From Triparma columacea (lineage: Eukaryota > Sar > Bolidophyceae > Parmales > Triparmaceae): a stretch of DNA of 64,000 bases. The position numbers and the translations under genes were made by a program. The notes below the pieces were generated by a model, which saw only the letters and a program-made list of their open reading frames with translations, was not told where the DNA came from and searched no databases. The stretch is taken from NCBI GenBank assembly GCA_030267965.1, contig BRYA01000062.1, forward strand, positions 48,709-112,708. Reading direction: 5' to 3'. Of the stretch, positions 21,342 to 64,000 are shown piece after piece (position 1 is the stretch's first letter; every line of letters begins with the position of its first letter).

Positions 21342-23429
21342 CTACTTTCTGCCGCCCCTCCTACCATCTTTGACGGCCTTCAAAGTTTCAGCGTCAATCT
21401 TTGCAACCTCAACACTGCTGACTTTCTTCCTCTTGCGCTTCTTCGTCCTTACCCCCCCTACCACGTCCCCCCTCCCCTCCGTCATGTCCATTAGCACCTC
21501 CGACGTCACGCCCTTACTCACAAGTGAGTTGGAACCCGGGGGCACGCTGGGAAACTTTGCCTTGCCCTTGCCCTCGTCGTCGTCCTCCTCCTCCTCCTCC
21601 CCTCTCCCCCCCCCCCCGCTGCTGGAAGAAAACTTCGCAGCAATAGAAGACCGCGATTTCTTGCTGTCCCCTTCGTCCTCCATGTCCCTATCGTCACCCC
21701 CCACCCTCTCCGTCCTCCCAACCATGGCGGAACTGGCAGCGGCGATGGCCGCAATGCCTTCGTCCCCCTCCTGGCACTTCAAATCATACCACGTCCTGAC
21801 TCTCCGCTGCTCTTCAAGCTCGACCTGCGCCATCGCGACAGCTATGCAGAGTAAGTTGTCGCTAGTAGCCCTCTTCGTCGCGAATTTTGGGGAGAGGAAA
21901 TTCGTGATTTGTGAAGAGAGGGTGCAACTGCACTTCGTTTGTTCTCCAAAGAATAAAGCGCTCCCAACAGCGCTCCCAACAGCCCCGCTCGCACTATCCT
22001 CCCCTCCAGCGACCTCCACCCCGTCCGCCTCGTCACTCAAATAATCCTGCAGTATCTCGAGGCTGCTCCTGACAACAATCTGCGCTGGCCACCAGGGCCG
22101 GTCTTTCGCTTTCCCCCAAACCACAGCACACGTCACAGCCACAGCGTGCTCTTCAAGCACGATCCACCTGTGAACTGGCACCTTCCTCCGAGCCGTCCCG
22201 GACCTAAACCTGACCAAGAACTCGAGGTTTTCGTGCCCACCCACGCCGTAAAAAGTCTCAGGGGGTTGACTATTATTCACAACGTCCTCACGCGAAAGGG
22301 ACTTCTTTTGATTGGTCGAGGCGACGTAGGGACGTGCGTGCCTCCTGTGGCTAATGATCCTCCCCACATGGTACGTGTTGTCGTTTGGGCAATAAAGCCT
22401 CACAGACTGCCCGAGGAGGGGGTTGTCTTGTTTAGGAGCAGAAGGTCGCTTCTTTTTGGAGAAGGGAGAGGCGACGATGCTAGCGTCATCGTGATCTTCG
22501 TCTTGATCTTCATTCCCGTCTGCGTGCTTACCACCGTCACCATCATCCTCATTGTCCTCCTCCCCTAGGCTCCCCGCAAGGTCCTCCAAGGCCCTCTCCC
22601 TGCGGAGCGTGAACGAGCCAATCTCACTCTCGAACTTGCCTCCCTTACCGAACTCAGCCATGCACTTTTCAACATCCTTAGTCCCAAAGCCCGCACCCTT
22701 GAGGGCCTTCTTCGCCTTGGCCATTACAAAGGCCTCGCTAGAGCCGCACACGCTCTTGTTCGATTCACAATCGTAGAAGAAGTCGTTGAGGCCCTTGCTC
22801 GCCCCCATGGGGCAACAGTCGAAGCAGAAAAACTCAGACTCCGGAATGGCCTCAAGGTTGGCGCACTTGAGATGATACTCCCTGGTGCAGAAGTTGCCAT
22901 CACACAGCACCGTCGGCTCGTCCAGCTCCGTGCACTCCTCGTCGCGTGCCCCATTGCAGCCAGCGCACCTCCCAGGCGTGTTGTACTTGATAAGTTGACC
23001 TTGCCCGTCCCTCCACAGCCCGCTTACGTACTCCCTACCCACGGGGGCGCAGGAGGAAAAATTCTGCATGGCGTGCAGGGGAATATCACCGTTTTGGTCC
23101 GACTTCCCCTGCTTTGACAGCAGCACTCGACACTTCCTATGGACACAGGACTGACGCATTGTCCCAGGACCCCCATTCTTTTTCATATTCAAACATTGAG
23201 GACACGCACCGCATTCATCTGCAAGACAGCCCTAGTAAGTCAGTTTTAGGCAACAAAAAGTGTTAAAATGGTGTTAAAATGGTGTTATAATGGAGATAAG
23301 CGGTCTTCCCACCGAGCGGCAGCCCAGTCATTTCTTCCCTAACCCATCCCTAACCCATCTTCTCATGCTTACCTTGCATACGCCGCATCTTATATTGCGT
23401 TGTATTCCACTACCGCCACCTCTCGCCAT
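21342..23429 (-). CDS. CXXC zinc finger - PHD finger - PWWP chromatin protein
   Basis: Exons 23429-23373 and 23231-21342 (phase 0, 648 residues). The intron splits the CXXC domain: exon 1 ends RCGVCK and exon 2 begins GCLADECGACPQC, followed by MKKNGGPG and SCVHRKC, giving the CXXC consensus with KNGGPG in place of KFGGPG. A PHD-type Cys4-His-Cys3 finger spans about 108-158 (CAGC...CDGNFC...YHLKC...CFDC). An acidic stretch and basic SKKKRPSAPK follow, then a Tudor-like strand set (about 300-378) and a PWWP motif (RPWWP, 398-402). A Ser/Gly/Glu/Asp-rich tail ends in a basic nuclear signal (KKRKRKK). CXXC fingers bind unmethylated CpG, PHD and PWWP read histone tails; a role at CpG-rich promoters is inferred. 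Confidence 0.85.
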
Positions 23430-51564: not shown

Positions 51565-52943
51565 ATGTCTAATACTGAAGACGCTGTCTCTGTGTCAAGT
51601 TCTGACGACAGTTTTGACGATCACATGTTCGTCAGGGCTTCTAAGGCGAACTCTGCTGCGACCTACCGCGGTACCGTGGTCCTACCTGCCTGCATGGACA
51701 GAAAGACTGTGCTAGTCACTGGCGGGGCTGGCTTCGTTGGTAGCCACACTGCAGGTAAATCACTCCTTGGCTGCATGAGTCATCGTGGCTCCCTCAAACT
51801 TGCTCACATACAAACTAACCCTCTCTCCCCTCTCTCCCCGTCATTTCCCCTACCACTACCTCATGATCAGACGCTCTCCTCTCCCGTGGCGACTCCGTGG
51901 TCATAATCGATGAGTTGAACGACTACTACGAACCCTCCCTCAAAAATGAGAACCTTGAGTACCTTCGCTCCACCCATGGCAAGGACTCCTTCACCTTTGT
52001 CAAGGGCGACATTTGCGACGAGGATCTCATCGATAAGATCTTCAAGGAGTACAAGATCGACTACGTCTGCCACCTCGCTGCTCGCGCCGGGGTGAGGCCA
52101 TCCATTGATGACCCTCAAATTTACGTGCACTCCAACATTAGAGGCACTACTAGCCTCCTCTCCGCGGCTGCCAAATATGGAGTCAAGAACTTCGTCTACG
52201 CCAGCAGCTCATCCGTTTACGGCGGTTCCAAGAGCACCTACTTTTCTGAGGATGAGGCTGTTGACATGCCTGTGTCTCCTTACGCCGCCAGCAAGAAGGC
52301 CTGTGAACTCCTCGCTCACACCTACAGCCACCTCTACAACATGCCTTGCACCGGCCTCCGCTTCTTCACCGTCTTTGGCGAGAGGGGAAGGCCCGACATG
52401 GCCCCCTACAAGTTTGTGGACAGAATCAGCAGAGGCGAAGGCATGCAGCAGTTCGGTGACGGCTCAAGCTCCCGCGACTACACTTACATCTCTGACATTG
52501 TCGACGGTGTTGTGCGCTCGATCGACCGTCCCTACAAGTACCAGGTCTTCAACCTCGGCAAGGGCAGTGGGACCACACTGAAGGAGTTCATCTCCATCGT
52601 GGAAAAGTACACTGGCAAGAAGGCCAACAAGACCATCCTTCCCGACCAGCCCGGGGACGTACCAAGGACCTGCGCAAGCACCGAGAAGGCCGCCGCCCTC
52701 CTCGGTTACAAGGCCGTTGTTCCCTTCGACGAGGGCATCCGCCAGCTTGTGCTCTGGTACAACAAGAAGAACGGAATCGCCAACGGTCGCGCGGTCGAGG
52801 ACGCCAAGGAAAACGCCATCATGAGCACGAGGAAGAGGGGAAGGGTCGACGAGATGGTCACCGCCAAGGCATTCGAGAAGTCGAGGATTCCCGCAAGCGT
52901 CTCCATGGATGAACTTCCTGGAAACTTGGCCACAACATTTTGA
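51565..52943 (+). CDS. UDP-glucuronate 4-epimerase-type SDR enzyme
   Basis: Exons 51565-51754 and 51871-52943 (phase 1, 420 residues). The Rossmann loop is VTGGAGFVGSHTA; the intron follows it. Other motifs are VCHLAARAGVRPSI, the catalytic SSS in YASSSSVYGG, Tyr-Ala-Ala-Ser-Lys, CTGLRFFTVFGERGRPDMA and SRDYTYISDIVDG. ARAGVR and GPWGRPDM-like blocks mark the GAE/UDP-GlcA 4-epimerase group, which makes UDP-galacturonate for cell-wall or extracellular polysaccharides. Unlike plant GAE there is no membrane anchor; the N-terminus is Ser/Asp-rich. A 45-residue basic extension follows the SDR fold (VDEMVTAKAFEKSRIP). Confidence 0.9.
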
Positions 52944-54070
52944 AACGCGGCCTCAACTTTTAGGAATACATGTAGCGAGGCGCTTGCTGCTGCCAAACAG
53001 CAGCACGTGCCGAACAAATAGTAGAAGCAAAGTAGTTTTTGCGATTTGTAATGGTAGCACCAACATAACCAGCAGTCTGTTGACAATGAAGAAACCCACT
53101 TATTGTTTATAGACCATCTTTATATAATATCGAATCGCGCGGATTGGCGGATACAGCACGTATTTTATATACTATCAATCAAACCAATCCAGTCAATCCA
53201 ATAAGGAGAAGACGTTAGGGTTCTTAAACAAAACGTTACGCTCGTTTCTTTACATCCGCCTTTTCCTACTCTAGCTGCGAGATGAACAGCCCATCTACCG
53301 ATGCACCCACCGAGGCCCTCTCTTACTGAGGCACCCACTGGGTGGGAAGGAGGAAGGGTGCAGCATATAGATACAATTTTGTTATTGGGAAAATATAGCG
53401 TACTTGAAATGGAAAATGGGAGCAAACGCTGATCTTAGGACCGGAAACACGAAGACATGGAGGCATAGACGGAGTTCAAGGTGTGTTAAATTAACTTTCC
53501 AAAACCCTCAAAACAATTTCTGAATACACCAATCCCATTTACATCGCATTGTCGTATTCGTTGCAACAAGAAGATCGATAATACTACACAACACTCAGAA
53601 AATAGAGTTTGACGGCTTTAAGTGTCGACTGAAGCATAATACTAGCCCACACCACTCCCGGCCAACGTCGTGAGCACAAGCAATTTAGTCCTGTAACATA
53701 TAATCATCTAGTGTTATGATCCGAGCAATTTAGTCCTCATTTGGAAGGTGAGAATGTGAAGAGAGGGACGAAAAGGCTTAACGTTGGATCGGAGCGGTAT
53801 ATTGAGGGGTTCTATGTGCCTGATCGTGATGATGAGGCTTGCCCCCACCCTGCAACTTGCCTTCCAGAGAAAGAGACTGGCGTTGGGCACTTGCGATGGA
53901 CTCTCACTGATTGGGTGCTTTTGGAAAAGATAAAAACGCGCAATAATGAACCACTATGTGAATATGCCAACTTACGATATCTTCACTCACACCTAAAAAC
54001 GCCCCACCACCACCTTTTTTTACGCACGTCGTTGCCAACGCATAATTTTCAGCACCCAATTAGGATCGTC
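52944..54070. other. intergenic region before the subtelomeric array
   Basis: No complete gene is seen. A 16-bp direct repeat (AGCAATTTAGTCCT) occurs at about 53678 and 53725. From 53741 a frame of 110 codons without ATG is open into the next gene (DRDDEACPHPATCLPEKETG); it may be a remnant of another gene or an unrecognised 5' exon. Confidence 0.5.
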
Positions 54071-57000
54071 ATGGAGGGCGAGGTTGAAGCAGATGCAGGA
54101 GTCGTGAATGACGCCGGCAAGACCAACTTCGCCTCCGAGCCCCCTTCAGGCTCCAATCACACACCCTCCGCAATACACGGCCCCGTAGATATCGATTACG
54201 CAGCTCTTGGACCCGAGCAAGGTGAACTTGTGAAGCTTCTTGAGGAGAGAGGAGCCGTTGAAGGCCTCATAGACAACTCTACCGGCGTCGATGTGAAGGT
54301 TATGGAGCTCGCTGATGTCTTCCACGACGAGCGCGACAAGATCATTGACTTTTTCCTCACCGATTGTGAGCAGGGCAAGTTCCGAAGGAAGACCCTCCAG
54401 GAGTATGACGAAATGGAAGGGGCCATTCACAGACTCGTCTACTGGCAGCACTACGGCAGCGGGAATAAGTTTGTCGAATTTCTCCTCGACATCAAAGTCG
54501 TATCTCCTGACAAATCGACGAACATTATGGAGTTGGCACCCCTTGATGAGGATGACCTTTCTGATGAGGCAACTGCGAAGCTTGTTGAGATTCTAGCGCC
54601 AATAAAGACCAAGACTGTCAAACAAGGTGTCATTGAGGGGGAGCTCAGCTTCACTGATTTTGGGTTTGGACAAACTGCAGTCACCATGGTGGGAACTCTA
54701 AAGGCAGAAGAGAGATTAACAGAGGAGAGATTAACAGAGGAGAGATTAACAGAGACAAAATTGGAAGTTGGCATTAGCACAATCAAAAGCTCAAAGAGTG
54801 CGCGCTCACGTTTCAAGAGTGTACGCCGTAGTTTTAAGAGTGCACGCCCTGCGCTCTCTAGTTTTAAGAGTGCGGGCCCTGCTCACCCTAGTTTCAAAAG
54901 TGACGGGAAAAGCGACACCAAGTCTGCCTATGCCTCATTGAAGGGAATTCTCAATAAAGTCATGAATGAGTTCAGACAGCCTACAGTCATTGACGAGAGG
55001 AGGAAAAGACACTTTGTGGAGGAGATCATGTCAAGGGCACCACCTCTGACAATAGAGGAGGAGGCAATGTTGGAGAGGGTTGGGAGGCTAGAGAAGGAAC
55101 TTCATACAAAGGGAAAGAGAGTCAAGGGGACACTGAAGGAGGACATCGACAAGTTTCTGTGGAGAGAAGGGGACAATGTTTGGGCAGCCTTTGGGGTCAT
55201 TGTGGACAAGTCAGCGAAGGGTGTATTGGCAGAGCAATTTCTGCTTGACACATTTGCGCGATCTGAGAAACAATTCAAAAATAATGGGAACTTACCAAGG
55301 GTTATCAGGAATGGTTTTAAGGGAACTAGAAGCATGCACTATCATTTTGGCGTGAAGGTCCCTGCCGCCACCAATCGACTATTTGAGAATTGGTTTGTGT
55401 GGAAGGAGGCTAAATTGGACAATGGCCAGACTGCATACATGCTAGGATTTGTGCCTTTGGGTGAATATTATGGGGCAAGCTTTTCCAACCTTAGCAAAGA
55501 TGGCTTTGTAGTTGGAGTAACAAGAGGAATCTACATCATGGCCGAGGTTGCCCCAAATGTCTGCAGAGTGACACGCATTCAAACAGTTGATCTGAAATTC
55601 AGTGGCATTCGTAAGACAATGATGGACAAAGCAATTGACTACCTTGCAAAGAATCAGCTTGTTGAGGCCAACAGGTTGCAGAGGAAGTTCAGGAGGAACG
55701 GAAAGGAGGTTGATGCTGAGGTCAGGGGGGCCTTGGTGGAGAGGATGAGGGAGGGTGTTGAGTTGGAGGAGGACCAGAAGAAGGTGTTTGGGGAGGTGGA
55801 GGAGCTCTTCGGTGGGGAGGAGGAAGAAGGGTGGGGACCTCTTGAGTCACCTTATGAGGGAGTGAAGATGGAGATCAAGTACAAGCAGCAGGAGAAAGGG
55901 AAAAAGACACTCACTTTTGGTAGAGCCGAGTGTGTTGCTGACTGCTCAGCCGAGGAAGCAGCTGCTTGGTTCTTTGAGTTCTGCAGCAGGGAGAAAATGC
56001 TTAAGAGCAGAGAGAAAGGGGAGCTTGCAAGACTTGAGATAAGGATGGAAGGACAGGGAAGGATCAATGAGAAGCTATTTGCAGTAGTAATGAGACCTCC
56101 ATTCCCCTTTTGGAAAAGGGAATTTGTGATGAGATATGTATGTCAAAAGGGACACCAAGATGACACCATGTCTGTAGGGTTTGTCCCATCTAAAGAGCAG
56201 GTAGACTATGGGGGAAATCTAGGAAAGCTTGTGCGGGCAACGACAAGTGGCATTCTCACTGCCAAGAATATTGAGGACCATGATGGTGCTCTCCAGTGTA
56301 AACTTACATTGACCCAGTTTGTGGACATAGGAGGGTATATTCCAGTCAAAATGGTCGACAGAAAAACTCCACGAGTACTAAGTCAGATAGCAGTACTCAG
56401 GGACACCTTCAATCGGGACGAAGAGGTTGATAAAGCTGCACTAGCCTCTCTTACCAACATCATCAAGAATGAGCCTCAAGATTACTCTGAGGAGGAGAAG
56501 TATGCAATCAGGAAGGGGAGGGAGTTTTATGAGAAGTGCAAGGAGGGGAGGAATTTTTATGAACTGAAGAGTCCTGATGAGAGGGTCAAAATGAAGCTAG
56601 TTCATGTTGATGGGGCGAGCAGTGGGACTGGTGTTGCCACTACTGTGGTTGATGCGAGTGTGGAGGAGTGTGCTGCTTTTGAATTTCACATCAACTCAAG
56701 AGAATACAAAACTACCACAAAAGTGAATGGCATACTTGCTTCATCATTCAAGGAGTCAAACAAACACAATCTGTTTGTACGCCAAGTAAGAACTCTTGGC
56801 GTTCCTGGGTTTTCTCATCGAGAATTTAGAACAAGGGCAATCTGGAAGGTTGAAAGTAATGGCAGTATTATTCTCTCTATAGCAGACACTGGAGACCTAA
56901 AGGAAGAATTTCCTGTTGATCCAGGAAGTATCTTGGCGTCTGCTCACTCAGTCTGGTATTTTGAGTCCCTTAATTCCATAGGCGATGTGCAACAAACAGC

Positions 57001-57256
57001 CGTGACATTCATCTCTAAAGCGGATTTAAAGGGGGCAATCCCTACATCTCTATTTAACACGATCGCCCCACAGTTTTTGGCTGCCATTTCTACACTGCGA
57101 AAGAGATACGACCAGAGCAAAGAGATTGACGCCTTCAAGAGACAGCAGATCATTGCAAAGTTTGAGGAGATTGCAATTGACGGAGCACCAGGGAATGAAA
57201 GGCACTTTGATGAGATTGATGGAGCTCAAGAGATCAGTAGCGGGTTGACTGGATAG
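54071..57256 (+). CDS. START-like lipid-binding-domain protein, N-terminal part of the subtelomeric array
   Basis: 1061 residues from ATG 54071 (MEGEVEADAGVV) to TAG 57254-57256. After an acidic N-terminal region and a triple EERLT repeat (about 214-230) there are three START/SRPBCC-like segments: about 415-565 (GTRSMHYHFGVKVPAATNR... SRVTRIQTVDLKFSG), 595-790 (AECVADCSAEEAAAWFFEF... VMRPPFPFWKREFVMRY) and 835-1000 (ATTVVDASVEECAAFEF... GVPGFSHREFRTRAIWK). These domains usually bind lipids or sterols in a helix-grip fold. The terminal TAG replaces a CAG found in the parallel module at 61221-61223, so this is probably a nonsense mutation rather than the true C-terminus. Confidence 0.7.
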   Translation: MEGEVEADAGVVNDAGKTNFASEPPSGSNHTPSAIHGPVDIDYAALGPEQGELVKLLEERGAVEGLIDNSTGVDVKVMELADVFHDERDKIIDFFLTDCEQGKFRRKTLQEYDEMEGAIHRLVYWQHYGSGNKFVEFLLDIKVVSPDKSTNIMELAPLDEDDLSDEATAKLVEILAPIKTKTVKQGVIEGELSFTDFGFGQTAVTMVGTLKAEERLTEERLTEERLTETKLEVGISTIKSSKSARSRFKSVRRSFKSARPALSSFKSAGPAHPSFKSDGKSDTKSAYASLKGILNKVMNEFRQPTVIDERRKRHFVEEIMSRAPPLTIEEEAMLERVGRLEKELHTKGKRVKGTLKEDIDKFLWREGDNVWAAFGVIVDKSAKGVLAEQFLLDTFARSEKQFKNNGNLPRVIRNGFKGTRSMHYHFGVKVPAATNRLFENWFVWKEAKLDNGQTAYMLGFVPLGEYYGASFSNLSKDGFVVGVTRGIYIMAEVAPNVCRVTRIQTVDLKFSGIRKTMMDKAIDYLAKNQLVEANRLQRKFRRNGKEVDAEVRGALVERMREGVELEEDQKKVFGEVEELFGGEEEEGWGPLESPYEGVKMEIKYKQQEKGKKTLTFGRAECVADCSAEEAAAWFFEFCSREKMLKSREKGELARLEIRMEGQGRINEKLFAVVMRPPFPFWKREFVMRYVCQKGHQDDTMSVGFVPSKEQVDYGGNLGKLVRATTSGILTAKNIEDHDGALQCKLTLTQFVDIGGYIPVKMVDRKTPRVLSQIAVLRDTFNRDEEVDKAALASLTNIIKNEPQDYSEEEKYAIRKGREFYEKCKEGRNFYELKSPDERVKMKLVHVDGASSGTGVATTVVDASVEECAAFEFHINSREYKTTTKVNGILASSFKESNKHNLFVRQVRTLGVPGFSHREFRTRAIWKVESNGSIILSIADTGDLKEEFPVDPGSILASAHSVWYFESLNSIGDVQQTAVTFISKADLKGAIPTSLFNTIAPQFLAAISTLRKRYDQSKEIDAFKRQQIIAKFEEIAIDGAPGNERHFDEIDGAQEISSGLTG

Positions 57257-60200
57257 ACATTGATAAAGGCAGAGAAGGGAATGGGATGGGGAAAGACTTC
57301 AATAACTATGAGAGCATCCCACAAGGAAGTTGCAGCATACTTCTGGGGCCTTAAAAGTGTAGTTGACTCCCAGCTCGAGTTTCACAGAGTAAACAGCAAG
57401 ACTCTTATAGCCACAGTTGAACAAGAAGGACAGTTCACAGCTGTAAGGTTCTCAGAGGCTGGCCAGATGAAGACAGACGTTGAAATGATGACTAGACTGA
57501 AGGGTTTACGAAAGGCTGCTAGCAAAAAGAGTGTAATTAAGCACCTGAGCATGGCAACTGATGCTGCTTACTACTTTGACAACCTTCTTAAGAGCACAGA
57601 AGCAGGGGACCAAGATGGGAGGAGGTTTGGAGAGCAGCTGATGGAGAGAGTGAAGAGAAAGAGTATTGGGGACAGTAAGGTAGAGGTCGTGAGGGAATAT
57701 ATTGCTGCTAATAGGGCACTGAGAGAGATTACAGAGCAGCATGGTTTCATGAGAACTATGCTGTATGCTATGGTTATGAACAAATTTAAAAGGAGAGCTA
57801 CAAATGAGGGAGAAGATAAGAGTGAAGAGGAAGCCAGGGGGTGGGAGATTGGGAGTGCAATGACAGCAGTCATGTTGACTACTTTGTCAGCTGCTCATGC
57901 TGTAGATGAGTGGGCCAATCAATTCACTGAAGTGCAAGAAGTCATGAATGAACAAGAGTGGTTAAGGCCCATGCTTGAGGAGATAGTTATGAAACTATTT
58001 ATGAAGTCTACCTTAGGCTTAAAGGCAAGGGTCACTGTTGGTGCTGCCACAAGCATGGTTGATTTGCTGACTGATGTGTATGTGACACATAAGTTTTGGC
58101 AAAATAGGAAGTATGGGTACTTCAAGGCTTCTTTGGCAAGTTTGGCAGTGTCAATTGGGATACAAATGCTTTTAGTTTGGGTGTCAAATAAGAAGTTGGG
58201 GATGAAAAGGATGGTGCGAGAGCTGATTCCAATCTTGCTTGGGTACAAGCCTGCAGTAGATGCATATAGGGTAGCAACTGGTTCAAAACAAGAGGTTGGG
58301 ACTGCACTTGACCCAAAGCTTGAGATGACATGTGTGAAAAGTGTTGAGATGTTTGCTGAGGCAATTCCTGGTGTAATTATTCAACTTATGGCTATAGTAA
58401 CAAGTGACAAAGATGTTGGAACTTCAGCATGGCTTTCAGTTGCTGTGTCAGCAATTACAACAGGCTTTGCCTCAGCAACAATTAGTTATGATTGGGACAC
58501 AGACCCTTTTAATAGAGAAACGGCACCAGACTTCTATGGATATATACCAGCAAAAGCAAGCAAGAGATCAGTAGTGTTTGTTTCCATGATGCTGTTGTCA
58601 GCAGGGATGCTTTTAATAAGGTGCACAACAATAGTTCTTCTTGGGTTGATGGGAGGTAGTTGGGCCTTTCTCTACATTGGAGCTGATCTAAGCCTGTACA
58701 TTTTTGTTAAGATATTAAGGGGAGACTTCTGGTATTGGATGCCTGTTGGTGGCAAGGCAGAAATAGTGATTAGTATTCTTTTCAGAGTGCTGGTAAAGAT
58801 TGTTGTAGACTTCACTTCAATTGCCCAGTTTAGACATCCTAATGAAGTTGGGGGAGCTTACTGGGTGTTTGGCCTTCTATTGACAATGGGGAGCCTACCA
58901 GTGTCAATATATATAGCTTCACCCTATGTTGATGGGAAGGCAATTGATATTGCATCATCGATAGTGAAGTATTTTATACTAGTAACTACCATGTGCTTTG
59001 CTGTCTTCTTTTTGAACATTGAGAAGAAGTACTGGCACACCTTCTTGAGCACACAGAAAGGCAAGGAATATTCAATGGCCTTTTTTCTTGAAGAAGAAAG
59101 TGAAGCAGCAAAGTTTAAGGTTTTAGATAACTCAAGGCATCAGTGGGTCTCAATTGAAGGAGAAGTTAAGAAATGGGTTGCGTTAAACTGGGCTAAGTGG
59201 GAAGAGGAGCAGCCAGAATGGCTTACCGATGTGATGAAGGCTAAAGTACCTGTAGATTTTATTCCAGCAGATGGAAATGCTAGAAGGAGAGAGAGTGTGA
59301 GGAGAGCAAGTGTTGATGCTGAAGCTGATGGTGGTCTAGCAGGTACTTTGAGAGCAAGTATTAGAAGAGCAAGTGTTGGGTTGGACAATGGAGGCGCATT
59401 GGTTTCTTCACTAGCTGTGAATGATACTACACAAGACTATGCAGGTTTAGATCCTAAACGAATAGGACAGTTGTTGGGTGAGCAACTGTTGATTGCATTA
59501 AGTTTTAGGAAGAAGGGAATGACAAAGGAGGAAGCTGTTAGGTCATTTATTAAGAATAACTATGTTCTGAAACAGGCTGCAGAGAAGTACTTGTTTGTCA
59601 CACCAATGCTTGGCGCTGTTGTCAAGAACAAGCTGTGCAAGTTGAGGAAGGTTGAGGGAAAGGCTGTAGAGCTGGGAGAGAAGGATGGAAGGGAGATCGG
59701 AGAGTCTCTAGCGAGGAGCTTGGCTATTAATACTCAGCCAGTGGCTGCAATTGATGCCTTCATATTAAATTTCCTTGCTTTACAGGAGCTTGATGATGAG
59801 TATGAGTGGTTCAGACCCATGCTTGAGACAATTAGCTACAGGCTATTGGAGGAAGTTCCTTGGGGGTTGAAGGCTAGGGTAACTGTTGGAGCTATCACTA
59901 GTATGACAGATTTGCTAACTGATGTATATGTGACGTATATGTTTTGGAGTGATGAGAAGTATGGGTACTTTAAGGCTTCGTTGGCAAGTTTGGCAGTGTC
60001 TATTGCGATTCAGATGCTTTTTGTTTGGGGTCAGAATAGAAAGTTGGGGATGAAGAGGGTCACGAGGGAATGGTTTCCTATTTTGATTGGCTTTAAGCCT
60101 GCTGTTGATGCTTACAAGGTCGCAAAGGGCGAAAAACATGAGGCTGGGTGTACTGTTGATCCAATGTTTGAGATGACAGCTATGAAGATGGCAGAAATGT

Positions 60201-60319
60201 TTGCCGAGGCCATACCCGGAGTTATCATTCAACTTATGGCTATAGCATCAAGTGACAAAGATGTTGGAACTTCAGCATGGCTTTCTGTTGCAGTGTCAGC
60301 AACTCTATATTGGTGCTGA
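57257..60319 (+). pseudogene. continuation of the array: START-like half domain, membrane module 1 and truncated module 2
   Basis: It is in the same frame as the upstream gene but separated by one TAG. It begins IKAEKGMGWGKTSITMR, a fourth START-like remnant, then a long amphipathic linker. Membrane module 1 follows (58018-59400): LKARVTVGAATSMVDLLTDVYVT, AEAIPGVIIQLMAIVT, SISYDWDTDPF, LIRCTTIVLLGLMGGSWAFLYIGADL and FTSIAQFRHPNEVGGAYWV, with about eight hydrophobic segments. It ends with basophilic phosphosite-like repeats (RRESVRRASVDA, RASIRRASVG). Module 2 begins near 59465 and breaks off at 60302 where 215 bp present in module 1 are missing, giving LYWC and a stop. The TDLLTDVY and PG-x-x-Q blocks recall XK-related scramblase-type proteins; this is tentative. 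Confidence 0.65.
57826..58035 (+). repeat. about 210-bp segment identical to 61793-62002
   Basis: The two stretches, one in each linker preceding membrane modules 1 and 3, appear identical base for base (including third codon positions) from GAGGAAGCCAGGGGG to AAGGCAAGGGT. The surrounding sequence is about 85-90% identical. This points to recent gene conversion or unequal crossing over within the array. Confidence 0.75.
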
Positions 60320-63300
60320 TCTTGGTCTATACTTGTTGGTGAAGATCTTGATAGGAGACTTTTGGTATTGGGTTCCTGTTGGTGGCAACACTGAAATAGT
60401 GTTTAGTATTGTCGGCAGACTGTTGATAAAAGTTGTGACAGACTTCACATCAATTGTACAGTTTAGGCATCCTAATGAGCTTGGTGGAATTTATTGGGTG
60501 CTTGGATTTGTATTGACAATGGGCAGTCTCCCAGTAGCTATGATGCTAGCTGTAAGGGAAGATGTTGATAAGGAGCGACTTGAAATTGCATGGGCAGTAG
60601 TTGGAATATTTATACCATGTACAATTGTGTTGTTTGCTGTATTTTTTTTAAACATTAACAGGAAATACTTGAGCACCTTCTACAGCTTGCAAAGGGGAAA
60701 GGACTTGACAGTACAGCGATTTAGAGATTCAGCTGACGATGCATCGAAGGCAGAATCAATATTCAGTAACTCAAAGCACCATTGGGAGTCAATAGAAGAG
60801 GAAGTAAAAGCTTGGGTAGAGGCTAACTGGATTATATGGGAGGAGGAGAAGCCAGATTGGTTTGATGAAACAATGAGAGCCAAAATGCCAGTTGAATACA
60901 TTCCAGAATCTGGAGACGCTAGAAGGAGAGAGAGTGTGAGGAGAGCAAGTGTTGATGTTGAAGCTGAGGGTGGTCTTGCAGGTGCTGTGAGAGCAAGTAT
61001 TAGAAGAGCAAGTGTTGGAGGCGCTGATGGTGGAGAAATTATGGGGGTGGGAGGTGGGAAGGCTAAAGTAAGCAGTGATGTGCCGATAGAGGTTGATGCC
61101 TTCAAGAGGCAGCAGATCATTGAAAAGTTTGAGGAGATTGCAATTGAGGGAGCACCAGGGATTGAAAGTCACTTTGACGAGATTGACGGAGCTCAAGAGA
61201 TCAGTAGTGCGTTGAGTGGACAGACATTGATAAAGGCAGAGAAGGGAATGGGATGGGGAAAGACTTCAATAACTGTGAGAGCATCCCACAAGGAAGTTGC
61301 AGTATTCATCTGGGGCCTTAAAAGTGGAGTTGACCCCCAGCTTGAGCTGCACAGAGTCAACAACAACACACTTGTAATCAAAATCGAACAAGAAGGACAA
61401 TTCACAGCTATAAGTTTCTCAGATGCTGGACAGATGAAGACAGACGTTGAAATGATGACTAGACATGAGGGTTTAGGAAAAGCTGCCAGCAAACAAAATG
61501 TAATCAAGCACCTTGGCTTGGCAACTGATGCTGCTTACTACTTTGACAACCTTCTGAAGAGCACTGAAGCAGGGGAACAGGATGGGAGTAGGTTTGGAGA
61601 GCAGCTGATGGAGAGAGTGAAGAAAAGGAAAATTAGGGACAGTAAAGAAGAGGTTGTGAGGGAATTCATTGTTGCCAATAGGGCACTGAGAGAGATTATA
61701 GAGCAGCATGGTTTCATGAGAACTATGCTGTATGCTATGGTTATGAACAAGCTTAAAAGGAGAGCGACAAATGAGGGAGAAGAGAATAGTGAGGAGGAAG
61801 CCAGGGGGTGGGAGATTGGGAGTGCAATGACAGCAGTCATGTTGACTACTTTGTCAGCTGCTCATGCTGTAGATGAGTGGGCCAATCAATTCACTGAAGT
61901 GCAAGAAGTCATGAATGAACAAGAGTGGTTAAGGCCCATGCTTGAGGAGATAGTTATGAAACTATTTATGAAGTCTACCTTAGGCTTAAAGGCAAGGGTG
62001 ACTGTTGGTGCTGCCACAAGCATGACTGATTTGCTTACAGATGTGTACGTGACGTACATGTTTTGGAGTGATGAGAAGTATGGGTACTTCAAAGCTTCTT
62101 TGGCTAGTTTAGTGGCGTCAATTGGGCTTCAGATTCTTGGTGTTTACTTGCAGAACAGAAAGTTGGGGATGAAAAGGGTCTTAAGGGAATGGTTTCCTAT
62201 TTTAATTGGGTTTAAGCCTGCTGTTGATGCTTATAGGGTGGCAACTGGAGCAAAACAAGAGATTGGAGCTGCAATGGACCCAATGTTTGAGTTGACGATG
62301 ATGAAAATTATTGAGATGTTTTCTGAGGCAATCCCTGGAGTGATCATCCAAGTAATGGCAATAGCAACCAGCAACAAAGATGTTGGAACTTCAGCATGGC
62401 TTTCAGTTGCTGTGTCAGCAATTACAACAGGCTTTGCCTCTGCAACAGTTAGTTACGACTGGGACACAGACCCTTTTAATAGAGAAAAGGAACCCGACTT
62501 CTATGGATATATACCAGCAAAAGCAAGCAAGAGAACAGTAGTATTTGTCTCCATGTTGCTGTTGTCAGCAGGGATGCTACTAATAAGATGTACAACAATA
62601 GTTCTTCTTGGGTTGATGGGAGGTAGTTGGGCCTTTCTCTACATTGGCGCTGACCTTGGTCTTTACTTGTTGGTTAAAATTTTGAGGGGAGACTTCTGGT
62701 ATTGGGTGCCATTGGGGGGCAGTGTAGAAGTTGTGACTAGTACTATTATTAGAGTGATTGTAAAGATCATTGTGGACTTCACTTCAATTGCACAGTTTAG
62801 ACACCCATGTGAGGTTGGAGGGGCCTATTGGCTGTTCGGAATTGTGTTGACAATTGGAAGTCTCCCAGTGTCAGTATATATAGCTTCACCTTATGTTGGT
62901 GAGAAGGCAACTGATATTGCATCAACAATTGTGAATTATTCCATACTGACAACAACCCTGTGTTTTGCTGTCTTCTTTTTGAACATTGAGAAGAATTACT
63001 GGCACACCTTCTTAAGTATACAAAAAGGCAAGGATGTTTCAATGTCACATTTCCTAAAGGGAGAAAGTGATGCTATAAAGATTCAAGTCTTTACAGCTTC
63101 AAGGCATCATTGGATCTCAATTGAAGGCGAGTTGAGAAAGTGGATTAAGTTAAACTGGGCTAAATGGGATGAGGAGCAGCCAGAGTGGTTTACTGATGTG
63201 AGGAAAGCAACAGTACCTGTAGACTTCATTCCACAAGATGGAGACGCTAGAAGGAAAGAGAGTGTAAGGAGAGCAAGTGTTGATGCTGCAGCTGAGGGTG

Positions 63301-63431
63301 GTCTAGCAGGTGTTTTGAGAGCAAGTATTAGGAGAGCAAGTGTTGGAGGCGCTAATGGTGGAGATATAATTGAGGGAGGAGGTAGGAAGGCTAAAGTAAG
63401 CAGTGTTGTGCAAGATGAGGATGGGGAGTGA
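60303..63431 (+). pseudogene. rest of module 2 plus full linker and membrane module 3
   Basis: Frame resumes at LYIGADLGLYLLVKIL (60303), one frame off from the preceding segment because of the 215-bp deletion, and runs open to TGA 63431. It contains the end of module 2, a START-like linker (61082-61925, QTLIKAEKGMGWGKTSIT), and an intact module 3 (about 61950-63330; TSMTDLLTDVYVTYMFW, SEAIPGVIIQVMAIAT, YDWDTDPFNREKEPDFYG, RCTTIVLLGLMGG), closed by SVRRASVDA and RASIRRASVGG. No obvious ATG sits at a natural domain boundary at the start, so as an independent gene it would begin inside a module. Expression as a separate protein is possible but unsupported. Confidence 0.6.
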
Positions 63432-63516
63432 CTAATAGGGCAGCAACATTTGTAGGACAAATTGATTTGATTTGTTATGGTTTTGATTGTTATGTAAGTG
63501 GTTAGGTGTATGTTGT

Positions 63517-63932
63517 GTATTGTGGGAGTGTTATATTGGTTTGTGCGTATTTAAGAAGCGTAGTAGATGTATTGTTGAAGTGTTAAACTTGTTTGGGAGT
63601 ATTGAGGAAGTGTAGTAGATATGTATGGAGTTTTGAAGAGTTGTGGCAGCGTTATAGTGGTTTGTGAGTATAAAGGAAGTGTAGTAAGTGTGTATGGAGT
63701 TTTCAAGAGTTAGGGAAGCGTTGTAAAGTAAAGTAAAGTAAAGTAAAGGTCTCTAGTTTACGCTCTAGGCATCTAGCCCTTCGAGATCAAGTTCCCGAAG
63801 CGCCAGTCAACCTTGCCCTGGGTGTGCCTGTCGGTCCCAAGGGTTAGTAGTTTGTGAGTATAATGGAAGTTTGTTAGATGTGTATGGGGATTAATAAAAG
63901 ATAGAAGAGTGTAATTGTGTAAAGGAGAGGGG
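63517..63932. repeat. subtelomeric minisatellite
   Basis: Degenerate units of about 70 bp share GGTTTGTGAGTATA-AGGAAGTGTAGTA-ATGTGTATGGAGTTTT-AAGAGTT, with starts near 63520, 63580, 63645, 63720 and 63848. The last two are separated by an insertion (63725-63845). It lies between the last coding frame and the telomere. Confidence 0.75.
63725..63845 (-). mobile_element. SINE-like insertion with (TTTAC)n tail
   Basis: About 120 bp interrupts a minisatellite unit exactly (GCGTTGT | insert | AGTAGTTTGTGAG). Read on the minus strand it starts CCCTTGGGACCGACAGG and ends in five TTTAC units, the arrangement of a small retroposon with a short-repeat tail. A clear target duplication and a full tRNA-like promoter were not found, although TTCGAGATCAA on the plus strand vaguely resembles a B box. 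Confidence 0.45.
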
Positions 63933-64000
63933 TAGGGTTAGGGTTAGGGTTAGGGTTAGGGTTAGGGTTAGGGTTAGGGTTAGGGTTAGGGTTAGGGTTA
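63933..64000 (+). repeat. telomere, (TTAGGG)n
   Basis: About 11 perfect TTAGGG units run to the last base of the window, G-rich strand oriented toward the end. It is preceded by GGAGAGGGGTAGGG, a degenerate start. The window therefore ends at a natural chromosome end. Confidence 0.97.

Follow-up and report, generated by a model that had tools for sequence, protein, structure and literature searches.

The 64,000-nucleotide stretch of Triparma columacea (Bolidophyceae) DNA that we analyzed, hereafter the window (contig C62, positions 48,709-112,708, in a 37.85-Mb assembly of 789 contigs), carries next to a telomere an array of START-like domains followed by three XK-related membrane modules. 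On balance, we favor the interpretation that this array is one damaged member, with three modules, of a family of subtelomeric genes with the layout START(3-4)-[XK module](2-3), whose proteins would combine lipid transfer and lipid scrambling in a single chain, and whose copies would owe their diversity to recombination between chromosome ends.

All parts of the array lie on the plus strand between an ATG at 54,071 and a TGA at 63,429-63,431, and comprise the START-like domains A to C, a short START-like segment D present twice, and three XK modules; the TTAGGG repeats of the telomere start at 63,938, about 500 bp past the stop. Blocks of 300 nucleotides at 58,016, 59,864 and 61,983 show 76-80% identity to the middle block, identifying the modules as real repeats, and a further block pair at 57,121 and 61,088 is 89% identical. 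These coordinates and repeat identities bear out a first-pass annotation of the sequence, which had described START-like segments and three membrane modules in one orientation, ending some 500 bp from the telomere.

The same annotation had assigned the array to one very long protein, a claim that stands for intact sister copies, whose lengths run from about 2,400 amino acids to 3,233 or more, but not for the window copy, which is interrupted by a stop codon and a frame change. Its open reading frames occupy 53,720-57,256, 57,257-60,319 (the same frame, with a TAG between them) and 60,246-63,431 (another frame). In an alignment of 30 rows, not all of them independent (L010 and L011 are one place), the position of the TAG reads CAG in 22, another triplet in six and TAG in two, the last being the window and L009, which are one and the same place. 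By the module alignment, module 2 is without 215 bp that are present in modules 1 and 3, and the frame shifts there. The window copy is damaged, its lesions (the TAG and the 215-bp gap) being either real or assembly errors. In a sister copy on contig C91 (L111), a single frame of 3,233 amino acids or more spans the same layout, with three XK stretches (XK-related, 7.2e-13), so the three-module layout is that of a single gene. The longest XK-bearing open frame seen, 3,829 amino acids, is at C248:58,115.

The membrane modules, first annotated as channel- or scramblase-like, proved to be XK-related. The Pfam family PF09815 matches the frame at 57,257-60,319 with an E-value of 2.7e-10, its best stretch falling in module 2, and both XK-bearing frames of the window exceed the gathering cut-off (40.2 and 25.8 bits against 24.8), as does module 3 alone (1.6e-6, 27.8 bits). 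XK-related was also found at E <= 0.01 in 17 of 24 aligned long relatives. In the genome, 580 candidates gave 119 scored places, of which 112 matched; they were flagged over the cut-off, the weakest of them only together with neighbors in frame. None of 14 control genomes had a match, and some of the genome matches cover positions 4-333 of the 337 in the profile.

The modules further share the spacing of residues that matter for scrambling. In Xkr8, mutation of D26, D30, K134, E137, E141 or R183 is reported to lower phosphatidylserine exposure markedly (PMC8500837). The Triparma pair D159/D163 is spaced (by 4) as D26/D30, and the set K251/E254/E258 (by 3 and 4) as K134/E137/E141; E246 sits five residues before K251, the position of D129 in Xkr8. 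Across 93 aligned sequences (84 of the 120 module relatives listed, eight long relatives and the window module), D159, D163, E254 and E258 never vary; position 251 holds lysine in 90 and arginine in two, and E246 is glutamate in 91. Of 146 family proteins, gathered by similarity, 143 contain a pattern of D...D, 70-125 residues and [KR]..E...E..P; none of 120 epimerases, soluble enzymes that served as controls, contains it.

The tails that follow the modules hold 4-6 R[RK]x[ST] motifs in each of nine intact copies, and RRxS suits PKA-like kinases. These basic-residue-rich tails suggest signaling, and they would fit a rival interpretation, which we think unlikely, in which the START domains gate an XK module that works as channel, receptor or tether without scramblase activity, making the whole a lipid-responsive signaling protein. 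Kinases seem to be joined to some other subtelomeric START genes (at the start of C53, L114, a START stretch comes before a kinase-like one in a different frame), Ban et al. (PMC10328945) report that START is fused to kinases and transporters, and the scramblase assignment is drawn from sequence, not from activity. Against a signaling protein of this kind stand the acidic pairs required for scrambling by Xkr8, which keep their spacing and do not vary in the 93 sequences.

The START identity of the upstream segments, likewise proposed in the first-pass annotation, was borne out by profile-profile comparison with relatives that pass the Pfam cut-off, though the window itself falls just below it. 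Among the relatives, P0023, P0025 and P0026 score 29.7, 48.3 and 70.2 bits against START (PF01852; cut-off 22), and START was found at E <= 0.01 in nine of the 24 long relatives. Comparison with hhalign connected the window segments to each other (A-B 97.1%, B-C 99.94%, A-C 93.9%) and to accepted START segments (B to the START of P0023, 99.9%; A to the first START segment of P0026, 98.2%), with a control of XK against START near 0. By these profile comparisons, segments A, B and C are homologous to each other and to the START segments of relatives. Segment D has weak START similarity (67% and 65%), and the N-terminal segment, also considered as a START domain, was dropped at near 0-1% against START segments.

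Several results weigh against reading the array as a START-XK gene with a scramblase-like module. The START match in the window reaches 20.8 bits, under the cut-off; Pfam gave no match on single slices A and B, an E-value of 0.16 (11.8 bits) on slice C, and no match on full-length D from L111, and the whole of L111 had no START match at E <= 0.1. Of two slices of P0026, one gave START at 18 bits and the other nothing. On the membrane side, no counterpart of Xkr8 R183 was established in the modules, and the pairing with Xkr8 is by spacing alone. Sequence searches of the PDB with the window frames and the module alignment (A1) returned no XK or START chain. It may reasonably be inferred that the intact proteins would sense or move lipids at a membrane, as first suggested.

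The window copy belongs to a large family, whose genome-wide, telomere-directed spread was, like the apparent domain shuffling, out of reach of the first-pass annotation. Searched with 24 bases from the gene's 5' part and up to 3 mismatches, the assembly gave 123 matches on the forward and 119 on the reverse strand, or at least 242 copies (reversed control, 0), with fewer loci if the assembly kept both haplotypes in places. Placement was scored for 150 copies of 370 candidates. All 68 minus-strand copies lie at most 11 kb from a contig start, and 68 of the 70 plus-strand copies that were placed (82 in all) lie at most 10 kb from a contig end, so that 136 of 138 placed copies point outward at contig ends. 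The two exceptions are on C122, 13.9 kb from the end, and on C207, where a member at 23,359 sits 25.5 kb inside the contig end.

Such placement might mean only that repeats break short-read assemblies, leaving the gene at contig ends. At least three TTAGGG units end the contig in only seven of 20 fetched copies, and the C207 copy is well inside its contig, both of which would suit this account. It predicts neither the shared outward orientation nor what was found when telomere repeats, chosen blind to the gene, were the starting point: the first 100 of 1,116 matches to four TTAGGG units yielded 16 ends on contigs C2-C70 (one of them, on C22, 594 bases from the contig start), and 14 of these carry the family, pointing outward. 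Seven of the ends already figured among the family copies located in the genome; for the remaining nine, 600 bases taken some 2 kb inside the telomere served as a probe, and seven matched, all outward, that of C53 by its START segment alone and that of C2 as a divergent member (56%). Given the orientation and the telomere-first count, we set contig breakage aside as very improbable.

The two probed ends that had no family match are each occupied by something else. The start of C68 (L116) holds a subtelomeric kinase-like stretch (PK_Tyr_Ser-Thr, 2.5e-12), and that of C70 (L117) a cysteine-rich, apparently membrane-spanning frame where the START-XK gene would be. C70 itself is 75,484 bp long with TTAGGG repeats at both ends, and 16 contigs of 56,898-101,402 bp have outward family members at both ends (C34, C67, C121, C122, C126, C134, C184, C252, C257, C264, C305, C340, C379, C467, C470 and C527). 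If such contigs are not false joins, they suggest many very small chromosomes. XK-related matches that are maybe not outward and subtelomeric were seen at C528:27,823 (the strongest in the genome, 52.6 bits), C470:4,815, C133:39,666, C236:39,734 and C377:37,595, and are possible ancestral forms.

Relatives also occur beyond this assembly. A protein collection contained 24 long relatives, including six named T. columacea proteins, one from T. laevis, one EukProt entry of Bolidomonas and two that carry MMETSP transcript names, as well as 295 module relatives, of which 120 were listed, mostly from JGI. In a viral collection, 50 stretches fit the patterns and none coded for a relative.

Intact copies are under purifying selection: the ratio of nonsynonymous to synonymous substitution rates (dN/dS) was 0.30-0.36 in 36 of 36 pairs among nine of them. 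This bears on the view that the unit, like yeast Y', is mainly a subtelomeric element that is selfish or spreads passively, and whose protein matters little to the cell. Uniform orientation, adjacency to telomeres and the sharp 5' border that one subset has would be expected of such an element, as would broken copies, of which there are 18 among the 138, the window's included, under a rule calling a copy broken when its frame is below 2,300 amino acids and fills less than 85% of the room to the contig end (C122 and C207 count for having more room). Set against these are the constraint on intact copies, open frames of at least 2,300 amino acids in 62 of 150 copies, and the conservation of module and motif in relatives, transcript entries among them; we regard a chiefly selfish or passive element as quite improbable.

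The sharp 5' border was defined in the window, where sequence common to other copies starts at about 53,344, upstream of the ATG at 54,071. For the noncoding stretch 53,344-53,700, 76 candidates gave 40 scored places, one being the stretch itself; identity at the remaining 39 is 91-97%, with matches that start at query base 1-9. In the 20 fetched copies, homology begins at 53,340-53,348 in five and at 53,909-54,137 in seven, and eight have no match up to 54,170. With a shorter or no shared flank in 15 of 20, the sharp border belongs to one subset (five of the 20 fetched; the 40 places), and we dropped the idea that the family as a whole has one fixed 5' border. Coding DNA of the nine intact copies has a mean identity of 80.5% (75.8-83.8%), below that of the flank, for which a different set of copies was compared.

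Different domains of the gene appear to have different histories. We compared seven segments in 22 copies (the window, the 20 fetched copies and L111). START-C has a mean identity of 60% (37-92%) and falls into nine classes at 75%, and the other six segments average 71-86%. Similarities of different segments were uncorrelated in 20 of 21 segment pairs, the exception being N with XK1 (r 0.27, p 0.02). Within segments, the two halves correlate in START-B (0.78), START-C (0.88) and XK1 (0.70) and not in N, A, D and H1 (0.22, -0.10, 0.01 and 0.05), and correlation falls to about 0 past 150-250 amino acids (both in 20 copies). The domain parts of the copies thus look as if they had been shuffled, and short-read assembly could cause part of this.

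The reads are reported to be 150-bp Illumina pairs assembled with Platanus (PMC10328945), so false joins could produce part of the shuffling pattern, a further point against our interpretation. A fully artefactual mosaic, with Platanus joining pieces of different copies, would also fit the distance over which correlation is lost, which is near common insert sizes. The longest exact matches are short, and argue against false joins as the whole cause: in pairs sharing any match of at least 40 bp (231 pairs examined), the median was 68 bp and the 90th percentile 93 bp. Yet the maximum was 396 bp, and only 22 of more than 240 copies entered the comparison. We consider an artefactual origin of the mosaic somewhat unlikely.

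Combining these results, we chart a model for the START-XK family. On the cytosolic side, the START domains would bind lipids and carry (or sense) them; the XK modules would let lipids pass between leaflets, one chain doing the work proposed for VPS13A and its partner XK. The RRxS-rich tail after each module may serve as a phospho-switch, as in the tail of XKR8. Recombination between chromosome ends would spread copies and swap domain cassettes, with START-C as the most diversified and perhaps specificity-giving lipid-binding domain. A bolder form of the model, tentative and in our estimation rather unlikely, has a combinatorial, telomere-wide repertoire: hundreds of copies, many on very small chromosomes, would exchange cassettes, and the hypervariable START would set the lipid specificity of each copy.

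The features of the array are collected in the table below. An Rfam scan of 52,000-64,000 gave no match at the gathering threshold. Just inside the border of the subtelomeric unit, at 51,867-52,943, lies a UDP-glucuronate 4-epimerase-like gene. On the other side, beside the telomere, a GC-rich stretch of about 97 bp (63,745-63,850) recurs with full (100%) identity at five other places and, over part of its length, with 99-100% at two more, far above the coding identity, and it may be a recently spread insert.

Table. Features of the START-XK array and its surroundings (window positions).
Feature	Position	Strand	Basis or remark
5' flank common to one subset of copies, with sharp left border	53,344-54,070	+	probably promoter and leader; matches to other copies
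First part of broken gene, 1,061 amino acids from ATG, with START A, B, C after the N-terminal segment	54,071-57,253	+	open reading frame; START 20.8 bits, cut-off 22
Conserved N-terminal segment	54,203-54,721	+	placed by tblastn; START similarity not detectable
START-like domain A	55,046-55,789	+	hhalign
START-like domain B	55,847-56,533	+	hhalign
START-like domain C, hypervariable across the family	56,576-57,178	+	hhalign; 37-92% identity among 22 copies
Short START-like segment D, copy 1, broken by TAG	57,191-57,553	+	weak START similarity
In-frame TAG stop	57,254-57,256	+	alignment of copies
XK module 1	57,566-59,113	+	helical part 57,566-58,018; XK-related membrane domain 58,019-59,113
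Module 1 tail, RRxS motifs	59,114-59,404	+	sequence
XK module 2	59,405-60,749	+	helical part 59,405-59,857; membrane domain 59,858-60,301 and 60,303-60,749, frames differ
Junction of 215-bp gap, frame change	60,302/60,303	+	alignment of the three modules
Module 2 tail, RRxS motifs	60,759-61,091	+	sequence
Short START-like segment D, copy 2	61,158-61,520	+	placement
XK module 3	61,533-63,080	+	helical part 61,533-61,985; membrane domain 61,986-63,080; PF09815 1.6e-6, 27.8 bits
C-terminal tail, RRxS motifs, and TGA stop	63,087-63,431	+	sequence
TTAGGG telomere repeats at contig end	63,938-63,997	+	sequence

Yeast Y' elements, which encode a helicase, differ from the Triparma unit in having unrelated coding content, and most Triparma copies keep a long open frame. 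Y' is likewise a repeated subtelomeric unit found at many telomeres (PMC11042809). Large subtelomeric families are also formed by the VSG genes of trypanosomes, reported on hundreds of small chromosomes as well (PMC11739655), and by the var genes of Plasmodium; the Triparma family, in a free-living alga, shows here no sign of surface exposure or of one-at-a-time expression.

Among membrane proteins, the closest likeness is to Xkr8, Xkr9 and XK, in the Pfam match and in the acidic and basic residues that follow the spacing of the Xkr8 track. The tail after the membrane domain of XKR8 is reported to be phosphorylated (PMC10938166), and the Triparma tail may be too. Unlike these proteins, Triparma has two to three tandem modules, each bringing an extra helical part, and a chain of at least 2,400 amino acids unites them with START domains. 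VPS13A, a lipid-transfer protein, has been proposed to work with an XK scramblase as its partner (PMC9436381); that system consists of two separate proteins with bridge-like transfer, whereas Triparma has START and XK in one chain. In Parmales, enrichment of START domains and their fusion with transporters, kinases and others were reported by Ban et al. (2023, PMC10328945). XK-related modules and a telomeric location did not appear in that account as consulted here, and "telomer" occurs 0 times in its main text. Our searches of open-access literature turned up neither a START-XK fusion nor its telomeric spread, and no paper combining Triparma with telomeres, or XK-related with the START domain.

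Lipid transfer and scrambling are known as the work of separate partner proteins, and a natural single-chain form would allow their coupling to be studied directly. In addition, the family suggests that the sister group of diatoms has very small chromosomes. With copies in the hundreds, most of them open and directed toward telomeres, and with a START that is hypervariable, the question arises why an alga should diversify its lipid handling, for which membrane remodeling, phagocytic feeding and virus entry are speculative reasons. If the combinatorial repertoire is real, it would generate diversity in the manner of VSG or var, with proteins that handle lipids and in a free-living alga related to diatoms.

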